Program-made: the position numbers and the translations under genes
The notes under the pieces: model-generated
What the model was told of the DNA's origin: nothing
The model's database searches: none
The model's input: the letters and a program-made list of their open reading frames with translations, nothing else
Source of the DNA: a virus
DNA length: 24,957 bases
Reading direction: 5' to 3' (one strand)
Virus record (IMG/VR): IMGVR_UViG_3300006192_000036
Location: 1-24,957 of that record
In this document: one piece after another, positions 5,814 to 24,696 of the stretch
How positions within the stretch are numbered: the stretch's first letter is position 1
Layout: each line of letters starts with the position of its first letter

Positions 5814-6983
5814 TTAGGCCGCAGCGACTGCGGACGCGAAGTCGACCAAATAACGGTCGGTAATTTTTTGACGGAAGGTTAAATCTTCCAGCGGAGGCAC
5901 TGGGGTGTAGTCGTAATCGATATACAACTTACCGGCCTTAATCGTGCTGACGTCGTTAACGTCTTCGCTGTACCACGCTTGGCCATCGACGATATAGCCA
6001 AGGCCTTTCAACTCGCGGATCTTAGCGTTAATACCTTCGATAATGTCTTTAACCAATGTGGGGGTCATTGGCTTATCAACGGCCCACATGTGTGCGTCAG
6101 CAATGGTGTCAGCCAACACTTGTGCGGTGCGGGTGTAGTTTTCAAACTGGAATAAGGGATCTTCCGAGCAAGTACGCGAGCCCCAAAAACGGAAACCTGA
6201 TTGGTTAATCAAGGTGGTAATGTCGTTGCTGTTTAGGTAGCCGGCATCGGTAGAGGGATCTTGCAAATCCCAGTACACGGGTTTGCTTAAACCGGTAACG
6301 CCGTTAACAGTGACGTTCGATAGGGTTTTGTGCCAACCGACTTCTTTGTCGATACGTGCGCGTAAACCTAATGCGCGAGCGGTCGCTGTCGCGTTTACAC
6401 TTGCGGCGGCAACGGTATCAAAGGCAACAAACTCAGGCCAAATGATCATCACTTCACGATCGCCAAAGTTTTCACGGTAAGCCACGGCTTCTTCTTTGGT
6501 GGCGCAGCCATAGGCGCTGATATAGGCAAAGGCGCGCAGCTTTTTAGCCGTCGCAGCAAGTTCTGTGGCAACTGGCAAGGTGTCTAATCCTGGAGTGCCA
6601 ACAATGCGAGGCTTAACGCCCAATAATGACTGTGCAGCCAGCAATGCTTTAAGGCCGGTATACTGCCCTTGTGGGGTTACAGTGCCGACAATATTCGCCG
6701 TTGTGGCTGTTTCATCCGCCCCCTGCTCAACACGTACCACAACGGTAAGTGTATTCACTTGAGCGGCAATGGCTTCTAGCGTGGGTTTTAACGTACCTAA
6801 GGTGCCTGCTTTACCAATGGCTTGCATAACATTGGTTAGCAATACTGGGGTGTTTAGCGGGAATAGTGTTGCATCAGCATCGCTGGCGGTGCAGACAATG
6901 CCGATAACTGAGGTTGATACTGTACGAATAGTTCGGGTGCCATCATTGACTTCAATGACGCGGACCCCGTGGTGATAATCCAT
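5814..6983 (-). CDS. FI: Tail sheath protein FI
   Basis: 389-aa contractile tail sheath protein of the P2 FI family (PF04984; P2 about 396 aa). The family N-terminus MDYHHGVRVIEVNDGTRTI starts at 6983 and the C-terminal half carries FRFWGSRTCSEDPLFQFENY. The frame could begin 20 codons earlier at 7043, but the chosen ATG has GGAG at a 6-base spacing and yields the normal family start. The 118-base gap upstream holds a long inverted repeat that could mask this ribosome-binding site (separate entry). Confidence 0.95.
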   Translation of the reverse strand: MDYHHGVRVIEVNDGTRTIRTVSTSVIGIVCTASDADATLFPLNTPVLLTNVMQAIGKAGTLGTLKPTLEAIAAQVNTLTVVVRVEQGADETATTANIVGTVTPQGQYTGLKALLAAQSLLGVKPRIVGTPGLDTLPVATELAATAKKLRAFAYISAYGCATKEEAVAYRENFGDREVMIIWPEFVAFDTVAAASVNATATARALGLRARIDKEVGWHKTLSNVTVNGVTGLSKPVYWDLQDPSTDAGYLNSNDITTLINQSGFRFWGSRTCSEDPLFQFENYTRTAQVLADTIADAHMWAVDKPMTPTLVKDIIEGINAKIRELKGLGYIVDGQAWYSEDVNDVSTIKAGKLYIDYDYTPVPPLEDLTFRQKITDRYLVDFASAVAAA

Positions 6984-7101: not shown

Positions 7102-7386
7102 TCATTCATCAGTAGCGACAGGATAGCGCAGCTTGATCTCGACCACTTTATCGCGCCAATGTTGCTCGCTTTCTGGCGTTTGGTCGTATTGCCACTCCAT
7201 ATAAAGCGGGTCTGACTCTTCTCGATACGCAGCCTTACGTTTTTCGATGTTTTGCGACAATTCAAAGTCACGCTGGGCGAGCACAGAATTAACTTGCTCA
7301 GTGCTCATGCCCAAGTTGTTCATGTATTCACGCGACACATCAGTGTGCGATACGCCGTTAAATAAATAGGTGAATTTTTCATTCAT
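7102..7386 (-). CDS. Small tail-fibre assembly chaperone-like protein
   Basis: 94-aa acidic protein starting MNEKFTYLFNGVSHTDVS. The C-terminal half (RKAAYREESDPLYMEWQYD, then TPESEQHWRDKVVEIK) resembles the short proteins found after tail-fibre genes and grouped as phage tail assembly chaperones (Phage_tail_APC, PF16778), with their typical R-x-x-R-D-P/W and W-x-x-x-V-x-x-I pattern. It occupies the P2 G (fibre assembly) slot. It overlaps the end of the reverse-transcriptase frame by 8 bases, so it is co-transcribed and perhaps coupled with the DGR. Its client could be the variable tail protein. Family assignment is by pattern and is moderate. Confidence 0.6.
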   Translation of the reverse strand: MNEKFTYLFNGVSHTDVSREYMNNLGMSTEQVNSVLAQRDFELSQNIEKRKAAYREESDPLYMEWQYDQTPESEQHWRDKVVEIKLRYPVATDE

Positions 7387-8656
7387 TGCTGTTTCTCCTG
7401 AACGGCTTGCTAAGCAAAGCCTTTTTTAGGTTGTAAGTATTGGCATGGCTTGCGTGTCCTAGCCATGATTGGATGGTTTGCTTTATCTCCACTAGATTGA
7501 TCTCGCCTTCACCAAACTTCCTATGGAACTGCTTTAGCTTGGCTTTTATTCGATTGACGCTGCACTTTCTTAATAGCCTATGGCCGGAGTAAATTCGATA
7601 CCCCAGAAAATCTAAGCTTCTACCTTGACTGGTTGAAATGGGGAAAACTTGCGTCTTGCTATTGGTTTTGAGTCTGAGGTATTGATGCAAAAATGTTTCT
7701 ATCTCATGCCTCCACGCATGTAGCTGAGCTTTATCCTGGTGAATAATAATAAAGTCATCCATGTAGCGAACATAATTAACCGCTTTTAGCCGATGCTTAA
7801 CAAATCTATCAAGCTCATTGAGATAGATGTTGGCAAATATCTGGCTCGTTAGGTTGCCCAGCGGAATACCTACGCCGAGCGCATCACTCGGGCTGTTGTC
7901 AATGATATAAAACAGCAACGCTTTGGTGCGCTCGCATTGTATTTTTGCATTAAGCAGCGATTTAAGGATGTGGTGATCAATGCTAGAAAAGTAGCGGCTA
8001 ATATCCGCCTTAAGCGCATAAGCTTTGCCGTGCTTTTGCTCCACACGCTTGATAAAAAGCTGTGCTCTGTCAGCGCCTTTATGCGTCCCTTTATTGCGAC
8101 GGCAGGCGTAAGAGTCGTGAATATACTGCTGGTCAAAAAGCGGCTCTATGATGTTGTAAATCGCACGATGCACCACCCTGTCTTTAAAATGTGGCGCCGA
8201 GATTAATCTGCGCTTTGGCTCAAATACATAAAAGTGATGGTATGGCGACATTTCATACATGCCCCACATTAACTCGTTTTGAATTTGAATAACGTTCTCT
8301 TCAAGATGATTGAAGAATGCCAGTGTTGCATTGGCCTTTGTTTTTCCTCTGCGACATTGGTAAGCCGCATTCAAGATATTTTCAAAGCTGTAAATTTGCT
8401 CAAAAGAGCAACCCATTGACGCATCAATTGGTTTGATTTTTGTTTCAGCAATGGCTGAGGCGAATGCATCCTTTTCATTGTTGCACTGGCAGCATCCCGT
8501 AGGATGTTTGCTTCTGGCGTAATCAAGAGCTGGACGGAAACCGATGTTGCTGTTCGCATTCGAGCGCGGATTGTTCAAGTTGAGCGCACCCAGCCCGGCG
8601 TTCGTGCCGTTGTTCCAGTTGCCACCGCGGATAGGGAACCGGTCCCGCATATTCAT
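7379..8656 (-). CDS. DGR reverse transcriptase (frame includes the template repeat)
   Basis: 425-codon frame encoding a DGR reverse transcriptase, which copies the template repeat RNA with adenine-directed errors. Visible motifs are ADISRYFSSID (catalytic Asp 218), GIPLGNLTSQ (263-272, the Ser-Gln form typical of DGR enzymes rather than group II introns), YMDD (298-301), LDFLGYRIY (348-356) and a C-terminal SWLGHASHANTYNL. No maturase or endonuclease domain is seen. Residues 5-43 are the translation of the template repeat. The first ATG overlaps the avd stop as ATGA, suggesting coupling. The next in-frame Met (residue 81, at 8416) would leave a 111-base spacer like that in other DGRs, but has no ribosome-binding site. 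The start is therefore uncertain. Confidence 0.92.
   Translation of the reverse strand: MNMRDRFPIRGGNWNNGTNAGLGALNLNNPRSNANSNIGFRPALDYARSKHPTGCCQCNNEKDAFASAIAETKIKPIDASMGCSFEQIYSFENILNAAYQCRRGKTKANATLAFFNHLEENVIQIQNELMWGMYEMSPYHHFYVFEPKRRLISAPHFKDRVVHRAIYNIIEPLFDQQYIHDSYACRRNKGTHKGADRAQLFIKRVEQKHGKAYALKADISRYFSSIDHHILKSLLNAKIQCERTKALLFYIIDNSPSDALGVGIPLGNLTSQIFANIYLNELDRFVKHRLKAVNYVRYMDDFIIIHQDKAQLHAWRHEIETFLHQYLRLKTNSKTQVFPISTSQGRSLDFLGYRIYSGHRLLRKCSVNRIKAKLKQFHRKFGEGEINLVEIKQTIQSWLGHASHANTYNLKKALLSKPFRRNSNE
8528..8644 (-). repeat. DGR template repeat (TR), 117 bp
   Basis: Aligns without gaps to 9084-9200 at a constant offset of 556. 97 of 117 positions match and all 20 mismatches fall on adenines of this copy (coding, minus strand). 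It contains 26 such adenines, six unchanged. It is rich in AAC codons in the frame shared with the variable repeat (N-W-N-N-G-T-N), the usual composition that avoids stop codons after mutation. It lies within the 5' end of the reverse-transcriptase frame. Confidence 0.96.
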
Positions 8657-9009
8657 AATGCAATCGCCTGTTGTTTGGTTTTAACAGACTTTATCCAACC
8701 GCCTATCATGCGACCTATCTCGACGAGCTTTTCAATCCATATCTGATACTTTTTAAGATCGACATAGCGCAAGTCTTTTGCCAGTCGAACCTGTCGCTTC
8801 AGAATGGCCAACTCAATGTCGAGATCGGTGAGCGTGGTCTTTTTGTGATAACGTTTAAAAGCTGTGATAACTAAACGCTGCAATTGCAGCATAGACAAAC
8901 GAATTTCAGCGCCCAGTACATGTGTTTCATGCTTAGGGAACTGCTTTAACGCTTGATAGCCGTACAACAACATTTCTCGGCATTTATCTTCAATAAGTAA
9001 GGCGGTCAA
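8653..9009 (-). CDS. avd: DGR accessory variability determinant (Avd), four-helix bundle
   Basis: 118-aa basic, helical protein of the Avd / four-helix-bundle type, which in the Bordetella phage DGR forms a barrel-shaped pentamer that binds the reverse transcriptase and template RNA and is needed for mutagenic homing. Alternating Leu/Ile and Lys/Arg patterns (LQLQRLVITAFKRYHKK, LDIELAILKRQVRLAKDLRY) fit four amphipathic helices. It starts with TTG at 9007-9009; GGAGG lies 4 bases before it and no nearby ATG is in frame. It sits between target gene and reverse transcriptase, and its TGA overlaps the next ATG. Confidence 0.9.
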   Translation of the reverse strand: MTALLIEDKCREMLLYGYQALKQFPKHETHVLGAEIRLSMLQLQRLVITAFKRYHKKTTLTDLDIELAILKRQVRLAKDLRYVDLKKYQIWIEKLVEIGRMIGGWIKSVKTKQQAIAL

Positions 9010-9033
9010 TCTGCCTCCAAGAGTAAGAGAACA

Positions 9034-9051
9034 GCTGCGCTATCGCGCAGC
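9034..9051 (-). promoter_or_regulatory. DGR target-recognition hairpin after the variable repeat
   Basis: GCTGCGC and GCGCAGC form a perfect 7-bp GC-rich stem with a GATA loop on the coding strand, ending 32 bases beyond the variable repeat and after the target stop codon. DGR target sites in the Bordetella phage and relatives need a similar hairpin or cruciform just 3' of the variable repeat, often with a GRNA tetraloop; GATA fits. No U-run follows, so it is not a standard terminator. Confidence 0.8.
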
Positions 9052-9071
9052 ACACAAAGATTCAGGCTTCA

Positions 9072-10304
9072 CTACACAAAGAAAGCTGGACGGAAACCGA
9101 AGCCGCCGCTCGCATGCGAGCGCGGATCGCTCAAGCCGAGCGCACCCAGCCCGGCGCCCGCGCCGCCGCCCCAGCCGCCACCGCGGACAGGGAACCGGTC
9201 GCCGTAGTTTCTTGCGTAAATGTAACCGCCAACGGTAGCCGTAGTGGCCGATTCAATTAACAGCTTGCGCAATAGCTCGTTAGGCACGTAGCTCACTGCT
9301 TTAGTGATGGCAGCAAAGTGCGAGGCGGTTAAGTATGGGTAATCGTTTGAATCGTCATTCATAGGACCGTTGCGCTTAGTCACTGCATTGCTGAGGATTG
9401 GCGCGCCAGCGCTGCCCGCGCCGGTTTGGTTATCAGTCGGTGAGTCAAAATAAGCAGCGTGTTTGTGCCAGTTTGCTTCAGCCACTGCAGGGTTATTGTC
9501 CAGCGTTGTAATAATCTGGCCATCATCTAGCTTAAATTGATCTAACCATTCCCAAACGTTGCCCACTAAATCACACACGCCAAAATTGGTATGGTCATGG
9601 TTCCAAGTTGAGGGCCCTTTACCCGTGTCCGTTCTACCCGTGCCGCTCACGTCCCCTGGAGCGCCATTATCAGAGCGGCGCGCGGTTTCCCACTTTTTCT
9701 CGTGCGAGCGTCCGTAGTTTGTGTTGCCCCGCGGTACGGTTCCATTAGCAAGGGACCATAGCGCAATAGCTGCCCACTCATGCACTGACATCATGTGCCA
9801 ATTTGCGCCTTTGCGCGTGCACAGCTCTTTTGCTACATCGTAGTTAACGGATGTGCGCGGCTGTACGCCACCAATAACGGCACTACCGCCAGCGGCTGTT
9901 GAGGCCAAATACTTGCCGATTAATATCTCACCGCGTGGCACTCCATTTGTCTGGAACGCAGGGTGAACCCCTGTGCCAAGGTTTAAGTCAACTAGCCCGA
10001 GGTCTTCAATATTGAAGCGCGGGATAACGCACATAATGTTAGGATTACCCTGAGCGTCATACACCACGGTATTGCGACCGCCAGAATTGTGCTCGATAGC
10101 TTTTTTGTAGCCGTCGGTGGCGATAATGGTCAGTCCGGCCGCTTTTTGGTCGTAGGTTGATTCAACCTTAGCAATGGAGTCATTGGTTTTTTTATCGATA
10201 GCCGCCATCTTGCCAGCGACTTCTTGCGATAACGCCTGTGATGCGGCAGTTTGTGTTGCGGACGCGACTTTTAGCCCCGCAATTTCTTCAGCAATCGAGC
10301 TCAT
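9072..10304 (-). CDS. DGR variable target: tail-tip protein with C-lectin / FGE-like fold
   Basis: 410-aa protein in tail-fibre position, proposed distal receptor-binding protein. Residues 1-60 are Ala/Lys/Gln rich and probably coiled coil, suiting attachment to the tail. Residues about 90-410 look like the formylglycine-generating-enzyme/sulfatase-modifying C-lectin fold: RGEILIGKYLAS (124-135), SVHEWAAIALW (173-183), VCDLVGNVWEWLDQ (243-256) and the terminal RGGGWGGG...GFRP block. The variable repeat covers residues 369-407. Fourteen of these 39 residues differ from the template translation. The ATG follows GAGGGAT at good spacing, two bases after the H-type gene. Binding partner is unknown. 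Confidence 0.9.
   Translation of the reverse strand: MSSIAEEIAGLKVASATQTAASQALSQEVAGKMAAIDKKTNDSIAKVESTYDQKAAGLTIIATDGYKKAIEHNSGGRNTVVYDAQGNPNIMCVIPRFNIEDLGLVDLNLGTGVHPAFQTNGVPRGEILIGKYLASTAAGGSAVIGGVQPRTSVNYDVAKELCTRKGANWHMMSVHEWAAIALWSLANGTVPRGNTNYGRSHEKKWETARRSDNGAPGDVSGTGRTDTGKGPSTWNHDHTNFGVCDLVGNVWEWLDQFKLDDGQIITTLDNNPAVAEANWHKHAAYFDSPTDNQTGAGSAGAPILSNAVTKRNGPMNDDSNDYPYLTASHFAAITKAVSYVPNELLRKLLIESATTATVGGYIYARNYGDRFPVRGGGWGGGAGAGLGALGLSDPRSHASGGFGFRPAFFV
9084..9200 (-). repeat. DGR variable repeat (VR), 117 bp
   Basis: Codes for residues 369-407 of the target protein. Compared with the template, changes are at 9101, 9103, 9104, 9107, 9109, 9116, 9128, 9130, 9136, 9137, 9157, 9158, 9161, 9166, 9167, 9169, 9170, 9175, 9176 and 9188. 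On the coding strand 18 are A to G, one A to C (9116) and one A to T (9101). The last 16-17 bases of the repeat (9100-9084) are unchanged from the template and fit the homing-initiation (IMH) segment. Confidence 0.96.
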
Positions 10305-10306
10305 AA

Positions 10307-10837
10307 TTATCCCTCTAGTTGTCTAATGCGCTCACTGAGTTGCATGTTCCAGTGAGCATTTTTAATAACTGCCGCCGCATTTTGTAAAAATGCCGTACAG
10401 CCCGCGATAAACTCTTTGTCTAAAATCAGGTTAAGGTTTTCAGCGCCCACTACCACTGTGATGCTGTCTGTTGGCAGCGCCTCAATATTTAACGTAAACC
10501 ACTGCACGACTTTTACCGCAGGGGTTCGGTAGCCCAGTGTCTTATTTGGTGCGCTGTATACGCCAAGCAAAGTTGTGCCAATGTAAAACCCTATCTCTTT
10601 GATGGCGTACTCTAGTGCGCCATCAAATACGCCAGCCATCCGTAGGCTTTTGCCACCATCTTGATAGTCAGAAATGGCAATGCGCTCTTTTTCAGCGCTC
10701 AAGCTGGTTTGGGCTTTAGAGGGCGTATAGGCGTTTGAGCCAAACGCCATGTGAGTGATCTCGGCTCTCAGTCCTTTGTCTTTTGCTGACAAGCAAGCGG
10801 CAAGGCCAGCTTCAGTAAATTGCAGTGTTAGTGCCAT
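10307..10837 (-). CDS. Tail fibre / tail collar protein, H-type N-terminal domain only
   Basis: 176-aa protein whose start MALTLQFTEAGLAACLSAKDK and ITHMAFGSNAYTPS segment match the N-terminal phage tail-collar fibre domain (DUF3751, PF12571) of P2 H-type fibres. P2 H is over 600 residues; here only the baseplate-attaching base is present, plus a short C-terminal helix. The distal fibre function seems to have moved to the separate DGR target gene two bases downstream. Its stop/start junction with I overlaps by one base (TAATG). Confidence 0.85.
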   Translation of the reverse strand: MALTLQFTEAGLAACLSAKDKGLRAEITHMAFGSNAYTPSKAQTSLSAEKERIAISDYQDGGKSLRMAGVFDGALEYAIKEIGFYIGTTLLGVYSAPNKTLGYRTPAVKVVQWFTLNIEALPTDSITVVVGAENLNLILDKEFIAGCTAFLQNAAAVIKNAHWNMQLSERIRQLEG

Positions 10838-23921: not shown

Positions 23922-24620
23922 TTAATTTTCTATAGCGAGCAATGCCGCCATCACGGCTTGGCGTTCTGCAGCAGGCAATGCTTCAAAGTTTTTTGCCCAT
24001 CTTGCTGCTTTACGTTTTATCCGTTGGCGATCAGTAAAATCCTTTCCCGCAAACGTATGGTAATGCTGTTCGCCAGGATGAAAGCTGCACCATACCGTTT
24101 CCGTTCTGACTCCTCCGCGCGTCATAGCCTGAAAGTCTTTGCTATACCAATCAGCTAGCTCCGTGTCATACAAATGATTTCGGTAACCAGAAATGATGAT
24201 AAAAACACCCTTAAGTACGGCTAAATGCTTAACAACAGTAAGCAGCTCTGCATGCTCCGCATCAGTGAGCTCGTTTTTATATCTTGCATTGCTTGTTCTG
24301 GTTGAGTGCACATAGGGAGGATCAAGATAAATCACCGTTTTGCCGATTGGTTGAAACGCTTTTAGGTAGGTAATTGCGTTGGCATTGATGAGATTGATAG
24401 ATAAATTTAGCTCTGCTGCAGCATGGTCAAATTTGTCTATGACACCAGGGTTAATTTCAATGCCAATATTATTTTTTGCTGGCGCTTTACGGCGCATGAT
24501 TGCACCAGTGCCGAGGAACGCCTCGATATAAGTGTCATGTGGCGGCATCAAGTTAATAATGCACTGAAAAACACCACTCCCATTTTTAGCGCCTAAATAG
24601 CTTTGCTTAGCAGCTGTCAT
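23922..24620 (-). CDS. dam: D12-class DNA N6-adenine methyltransferase (Dam-like)
   Basis: 232-aa methyltransferase that transfers a methyl group from S-adenosylmethionine to adenine N6. Visible are the N-terminal YLGAKNGSGVFQCI, the AdoMet-binding YIEAFLGTGAIMRR with IGIEINP, and the catalytic DPPYVHSTR (about residues 100-108). The C-terminal 35 residues are a basic helix (RQRIKRKAARWAKNF) beyond the usual core. I take the ATG at 24620 (GGGA 6 bases upstream) over a TTG two codons earlier. Phage copies of this family often methylate GATC and protect the genome; the target site here is not known. Confidence 0.88.
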   Translation of the reverse strand: MTAAKQSYLGAKNGSGVFQCIINLMPPHDTYIEAFLGTGAIMRRKAPAKNNIGIEINPGVIDKFDHAAAELNLSINLINANAITYLKAFQPIGKTVIYLDPPYVHSTRTSNARYKNELTDAEHAELLTVVKHLAVLKGVFIIISGYRNHLYDTELADWYSKDFQAMTRGGVRTETVWCSFHPGEQHYHTFAGKDFTDRQRIKRKAARWAKNFEALPAAERQAVMAALLAIEN

Positions 24621-24696
24621 AGACAATCCCGTCCATGGCCAACATAGACATTAGCGTCTGTACTCGATACCGCTGGTACCGCAAAGTTATATTTGT

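Follow-up and report, generated by a model that had tools for sequence, protein, structure and literature searches.

The window analysed here, the whole 24,957-base IMG/VR virus record IMGVR_UViG_3300006192_000036, is a fragment of a P2-like phage and carries a complete, genuine diversity-generating retroelement (DGR) comprising a C-type-lectin target gene, a variable repeat (VR), a hairpin, avd, a template repeat (TR) and a reverse transcriptase (RT). We hold with high confidence that this is a functional-type DGR of the lineage represented by phages VHML, Vp58.5 and ACA1, and that it entered, as a cassette, the distal-fibre slot of a phage of P2 type resembling Shewanella phage vB_SspM_M16-3 (M16-3), where it would diversify the fibre tip. 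An earlier, sequence-only reading had placed all DGR parts in one leftward unit, and the coordinates, profile matches and repeats bear this out to the base (Table 1).

Table 1. Features of the DGR module and its borders in the window.
Feature	Coordinates	Strand	Evidence
94-amino-acid protein, probable tail-fibre-assembly chaperone	7102..7386	-	PHROG 5714; Phage_tail_APC at C-terminus of L043 and L051 homologues
Segment replacing fibre body and chaperone of an M16-3-like relative	7109..10204	-	blastn against NC_070920 ends at 10205 and resumes at 7108
DGR RT open reading frame (ORF), 425 amino acids; RT domain from about codon 79-85 (about 8404-8422, leftward)	7379..8656	-	Pfam RVT_1 E 2e-22; PHROG 1423 E 4e-167
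RT-14-like structured RNA of the spacer that separates TR from RT domain; RT frame runs through it	8410..8529	-	Rfam RF02921 full-length match; covariation on 13/29 pairs
TR, in frame within RT ORF, codons 5-43	8528..8644	-	
avd, TTG start behind GGAGG	8653..9009	-	NCBIfam NF033474 DivGenRetAVD above curated cut-off; Pfam bAvd E 2e-31; PHROG 3206
Target hairpin, GCTGCGC-GATA-GCGCAGC: 7-bp stem, GATA (GRNA) loop, 32 nt after VR	9034..9051	-	
DGR target, putative fibre-tip/antireceptor protein, 410 amino acids, predicted N-terminal helix and C-type-lectin body	9072..10304	-	PHROG 2889 E 3e-158; FGE-sulfatase domain; Foldseek TaqVP
VR, 117 bp	9084..9200	-	20 mismatches to TR, every one at a TR adenine
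Collar/gpH-N-terminus-like tail fibre protein, retained	10307..10837	-	PHROG 3737 E 4e-72; inside 96.5% DNA identity block to M16-3

The two repeats align without gaps over 117 bases at 83% identity, and, as the sequence-only reading had it, all 20 mismatches coincide with TR adenines, of which there are 26 (18 A to G, one A to C and one A to T); the chance probability of such a placement is 1.4e-17. The changes are confined to codon positions 1 (12 changes) and 2 (8 changes), and 14 of the 39 VR codons differ from the TR. Twelve bases separate the end of the VR from that of the target ORF, and a search of the 24,957-base record for a second VR found none.

The same pattern extends across the lineage. 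TR/VR pairs were recovered in about 100 related loci, and within the clade whose RTs are at least 66% identical (45 loci, the window among them) the VR departs from its TR at 573 of 1176 adenine sites and at 22 of 4035 other sites. Variation of the VR among relatives had been proposed as a check on the element, and the outcome is positive, with the variation concentrated at template adenines. The loci L047 and L050 match each other exactly in the TR and over 1100 bases of target body, yet 13 of 25 adenine sites differ between them. Among the three ACA genomes, too, near-identical genomes have different VRs, and the window differs from L003 at 15 of 27 adenine sites and 2 of 90 other VR sites, with target bodies 10.4% divergent. 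Where the TRs of two loci differ at a non-adenine position, their VRs show the matching difference in 5585 of 5685 pairwise comparisons (pairs that are not independent). Adenine-confined VR changes together with mirrored non-adenine differences are what TR-to-VR copying predicts and, judged from these sequence comparisons, the lineage has recently been diversifying by this route. In two close relatives, L005 (TR at 996-1112) and L025 (TR at 6566-6682), the TR has G at five positions where the window TR has adenine, leaving fewer mutable sites; back-copying from VR to TR is a possible cause of this loss.

The avd and RT frames are both open. The RT contains YMDD at residues 298-301 and LGNLTSQ, a fit to LGxxxSQ within the DGR RT motif (I/V/L)GxxxSQ (PMC3521204), and its best full-length homologues are DGR RTs; motifs and homologues together point to the DGR clade. 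Its match to the bRT of Bordetella phage BPP-1 (8ub7; E 4e-66) begins at residue 85. The TR is not a separate unit before the RT gene, and instead lies in frame inside the RT ORF, a point that the sequence-only reading had missed. This ORF starts at 8656, twelve bases before the TR, its start overlapping the avd stop as ATGA. The overlap is present in 45 of 45 clade loci and AGG lies upstream of it in 44, and in all 45 the RT frame runs through the TR in the same register as the target frame through the VR. The TR is thus probably translated as an N-terminal extension of the RT. Alternatively, the RT could be translated from an internal start after the TR, the in-frame extension being a by-product of a template kept open because the VR must lack stops. 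BPP-1 bRT, which has no N-terminal TR extension, fits this alternative, as do the predicted disorder of RT codons 1-78 (with a well-predicted RT domain beyond them), the position of the TR outside the RT ORF in distant members of the group, and the low synonymous change of the spacer described below, taken as constraint on the RNA itself. We nevertheless consider it unlikely, and rejected it as a candidate, because an internal start is not conserved in the clade: 31 of the 45 loci lack any in-frame ATG, GTG or TTG between the end of the TR and the RT domain. The conserved ATGA overlap, upstream AGG and shared TR/VR frame also speak against it, as do spacer length differences among loci, which are essentially multiples of three.

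The spacer between the TR and the RT domain is a structured RNA. In an alignment of 25 sequences its helices are paired in 96.6% of cells, compared with 86.3% in shuffles and 26-48% in slid controls, a percentage favoured by derivation of the structure from the same sequences; two-sided changes occur in 83 cells, compared with 22.7 in shuffles, a test that shared ancestry inflates, whereas the slid controls retain that ancestry. Compensatory changes are present in 13 of 29 pairs, and none of 500 shuffles reached the covariation score. On its own, the window spacer folds with an energy only weakly below that of shuffles (z -1.6), so the case for structure rests on covariation. A consensus fold outside the spacer was set aside, consisting mostly of invariant pairs. 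The best Rfam match to the window spacer is RT-14 (RF02921), which aligns over its full length at 37.6 bits, below the gathering score of 48.1; that score is exceeded at the same place after the TR in L106 (53.1) and L013 (52.5), and a full-length structural alignment finds the RT-14 helices conserved by covariation. The covariance model that we built locates the element beside the TR in distant members whose TR is outside the RT ORF (L010, L011 and L013 among them), and does not detect BPP-1. The BPP-1 spacer family RF03022 was not among the matches in the window, where RT-14 was found instead.

Synonymous change (pS) in the spacer is 0.44, compared with 0.81 in the RT core, and the ratio of nonsynonymous to synonymous change (pN/pS) is 0.49, compared with 0.22. 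Halved synonymous change with a higher pN/pS points to constraint acting on the RNA rather than on the peptide. The BPP-1 spacer recruits bRT-Avd and primes cDNA (PMC12875486); position, conservation and this analogy suggest that the RT-14-like element would likewise recruit RT-Avd and prime cDNA here.

The target protein is predicted to form a 74-residue helix followed by a lectin body (mean pLDDT 84.9). Its best match in the PDB by Foldseek is TaqVP, the DGR variable protein of Thermus aquaticus (5vf4; TM 0.75-0.77, 36% identity, E 2.5e-35), with Treponema denticola variable protein 1 and BPP-1 Mtd further down the list. The model thus supports a C-type lectin of the TaqVP/Mtd type with the VR at its C-terminus. 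Of the VR substitutions in the window, 18 of 20 are A to G, compared with 59% G in the clade, giving a glycine-rich variable face, GGWGGGAGAG. The target hairpin follows the rule of a GC-rich stem with a GRNA loop after the VR (PMC3240598). Such hairpins are present in 80 of 97 related loci and in 17 of 3330 control windows, which were scanned with a slightly stricter stem length (7 rather than 6).

We propose that a single transcript would be translated into Avd and RT and would also supply the template. A complex of RT and Avd would bind the structured spacer and copy the TR into cDNA, placing random bases opposite adenines; the cDNA would then replace the VR, aided by the post-VR hairpin. 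Replacement would alter residues at the ligand-binding end of the C-type-lectin fibre tip, presumably the receptor-binding part, and so shift receptor choice, while the small chaperone of the cassette probably assists fibre folding. Comparison of the loci supports template and structured RNA sharing one stretch with the reading frame. One could speculate further that in this DGR lineage one RNA does three jobs, as TR template, as spacer that recruits RT-Avd and primes cDNA, and as RT leader: ribosomes on the RT would unfold or clear the template RNA, making RT synthesis and template use mutually exclusive, and translation would throttle mutation. We offer the throttle as speculation, and think this reading as a whole rather unlikely.

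The DGR of the window phage is probably still active. Several points weigh against this reading. The window phage is represented by one record with one VR sequence; its A-to-G skew exceeds that of the clade (p = 0.003 before correction for about 45 loci); and the RT is broken in a relative, the prophage proACA1-A, so carriage is no proof of activity. These points could also mean that the element is now inactive, its repeats recording past diversification and its VR fixed: the skew could be that of a selected, long-kept VR, and the inactivated RT of proACA1-A provides a known precedent. We judge such inactivity quite improbable. Every part of the element in the window (RT, avd, TR, spacer and hairpin) is intact, the RT core of sister loci is under strong purifying selection (pN/pS of about 0.22), and the closest relatives carry different VRs, and we continue to prefer a DGR that is functional in type and probably at work. 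Ordinary duplication of a lectin segment followed by divergence, with no mutagenic homing, would fit two gapless repeats of this identity taken by themselves. As the origin of the pair it is virtually impossible, being already refuted by the placement of every mismatch on a template adenine, next to a DGR RT and Avd and with the same pattern in about 100 loci.

The carrier is P2-like and probably belongs with the Peduoviridae. The window has terminase and portal genes on the plus strand and capsid and tail genes on the minus strand, the latter running V, W, J, I, collar, fibre slot, sheath, tube and tape measure. This is the layout of P2, and the tail proteins V, W, J and I, sheath and tube are of P2 type. 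Its nearest isolate is M16-3 (NC_070920; Peduoviridae, Arsenicumvirus), with 93.7% DNA identity over 62% of the window and the same P2-like layout, which makes a Shewanella-like host likely. Within the tape measure gene, at positions 1737-2266, a 114-bp unit is repeated in tandem 4.6 times (90% matches), and each copy is expected to add 38 amino acids to the predicted protein. A gene at 23922-24626 resembles Dam-family adenine methyltransferases, with a score below the curated cut-off.

Comparison with M16-3 sets the borders of the exchange. In blastn, a block of 96.5% identity to M16-3 takes in the collar gene and the first 33 or so fibre codons and stops at 10205; a second block, at 92%, resumes at 7108 and enters the sheath region. 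Unlike the window, M16-3 has in this slot an ordinary fibre gene and a Phage_tail_APC assembly chaperone, with no DGR; because the alignment breaks at 10205 and 7108, 3.1 kb in the window occupies the place of 0.8 kb in M16-3. The border within the fibre gene preserves the N-terminal segment, presumably for docking. The DGR therefore occupies, as the sequence-only reading held, the distal-fibre position in the tail operon of a P2-type phage. The accompanying claim that it replaces the P2 H/G region is slightly too broad: it holds for the distal fibre body and the chaperone, but the gpH-N-terminus-like collar gene is kept. The exchanged module also reaches beyond the interval 7379-10304 originally assigned to it, extending to the small ORF at 7102-7386.

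This small ORF directly follows the fibre gene module, at the gpG position, and its 94-amino-acid product is probably a tail-fibre-assembly chaperone. It matches PHROG 5714 (6e-33), as the M16-3 chaperone does more weakly (4e-6). Neither PF16778 (Phage_tail_APC) nor any other Pfam family matched the window protein, whereas PF16778 does match the M16-3 chaperone and the correspondingly placed homologues of L043 and L051, the latter two keeping the N-terminal half of the 94-amino-acid protein joined to the Phage_tail_APC domain; the counterpart in L014 carries DUF4376. In four further loci (L007, L055, L056 and L082) the DGR and small ORF lie amid lambda-type genes (tape measure, minor tail protein, Phage_tail_L and NlpC/P60), so the cassette, including its small chaperone-like gene, occurs in different tail types, both contractile and lambda-type.

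The sequence-only reading regarded placement in the fibre slot of a P2-type phage as the notable part. That emphasis does not survive comparison with known phages, and we rejected the idea of a first such case: VHML (AY133112), Vp58.5 (FN297812) and the Pseudoalteromonas phages ACA1 and ACA2 already carry a homologous module there. In VHML and Vp58.5 (Vhmlvirus) the module lies in the same slot, between gpI/collar and sheath, and in the same order as in the window, collar, target, avd, TR/RT, small ORF and sheath. The Vp58.5 RT is 79% identical to that of the window, the targets of both phages are about 80% identical to the window target, and the hairpin with a GRNA loop is shared, that of the VHML target having been listed in 2011 (PMC3240598). 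These phages differ from the window phage in not belonging to the Peduoviridae and in the rest of their genomes, and their module DNA is about 70% identical to that of the window. In the VHML deposit (L031, 7901-9044) the TR-containing frame and the RT frame are split by frameshifts that are not in Vp58.5, reflecting either decay or sequencing error.

ACA1 and ACA2, which are Peduoviridae, resemble the window phage as P2-like phages with a DGR acting on an antireceptor in the fibre slot, a TR translated as an N-terminal extension of the RT, and a small protein, gp45, alongside. They differ in having an HP1-branch tail module and another surrounding gene order, and their RT is 73% identical. 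The 2023 paper on these phages reported the DGR along with its translated TR and a third, small protein, and its authors considered theirs the sole case among characterised P2-like phages (PMC10612066). The RT of the Burkholderia P2-like phage KS5 was rejected as a relative, as its authors argue that it is not DGR-like. DGRs whose TR overlaps the annotated RT ORF had been described in 2012 as 'group 3' (PMC3521204). A kappa-type prophage of Vibrio cholerae HE-09 provides a parallel exchange, in which a segment of the fibre region was swapped for a DGR by fusion inside the target/fibre gene; its mtd and brt are BPP-1-like, rather than a module of the VHML type (PMC3521204). BPP-1 itself (mtd-avd-TR-brt), the mechanistic prototype, shares a homologous RT (39% identity), Avd, a C-type-lectin target and a post-VR hairpin; it differs in not being P2-type, in having its TR outside the RT ORF, and in a spacer RNA of the Phage_DGR family RF03022 rather than one resembling RT-14.

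The window DGR is a new member of this published group; the RNA overlap, its small chaperone-like gene and the borders of exchange are the points on which it adds detail. The window phage and M16-3 form a close pair with and without the DGR that shows which fibre parts were exchanged when the element was taken up, and a structured RNA overlapping the RT gene makes the sharing of template, priming RNA and mRNA roles testable.

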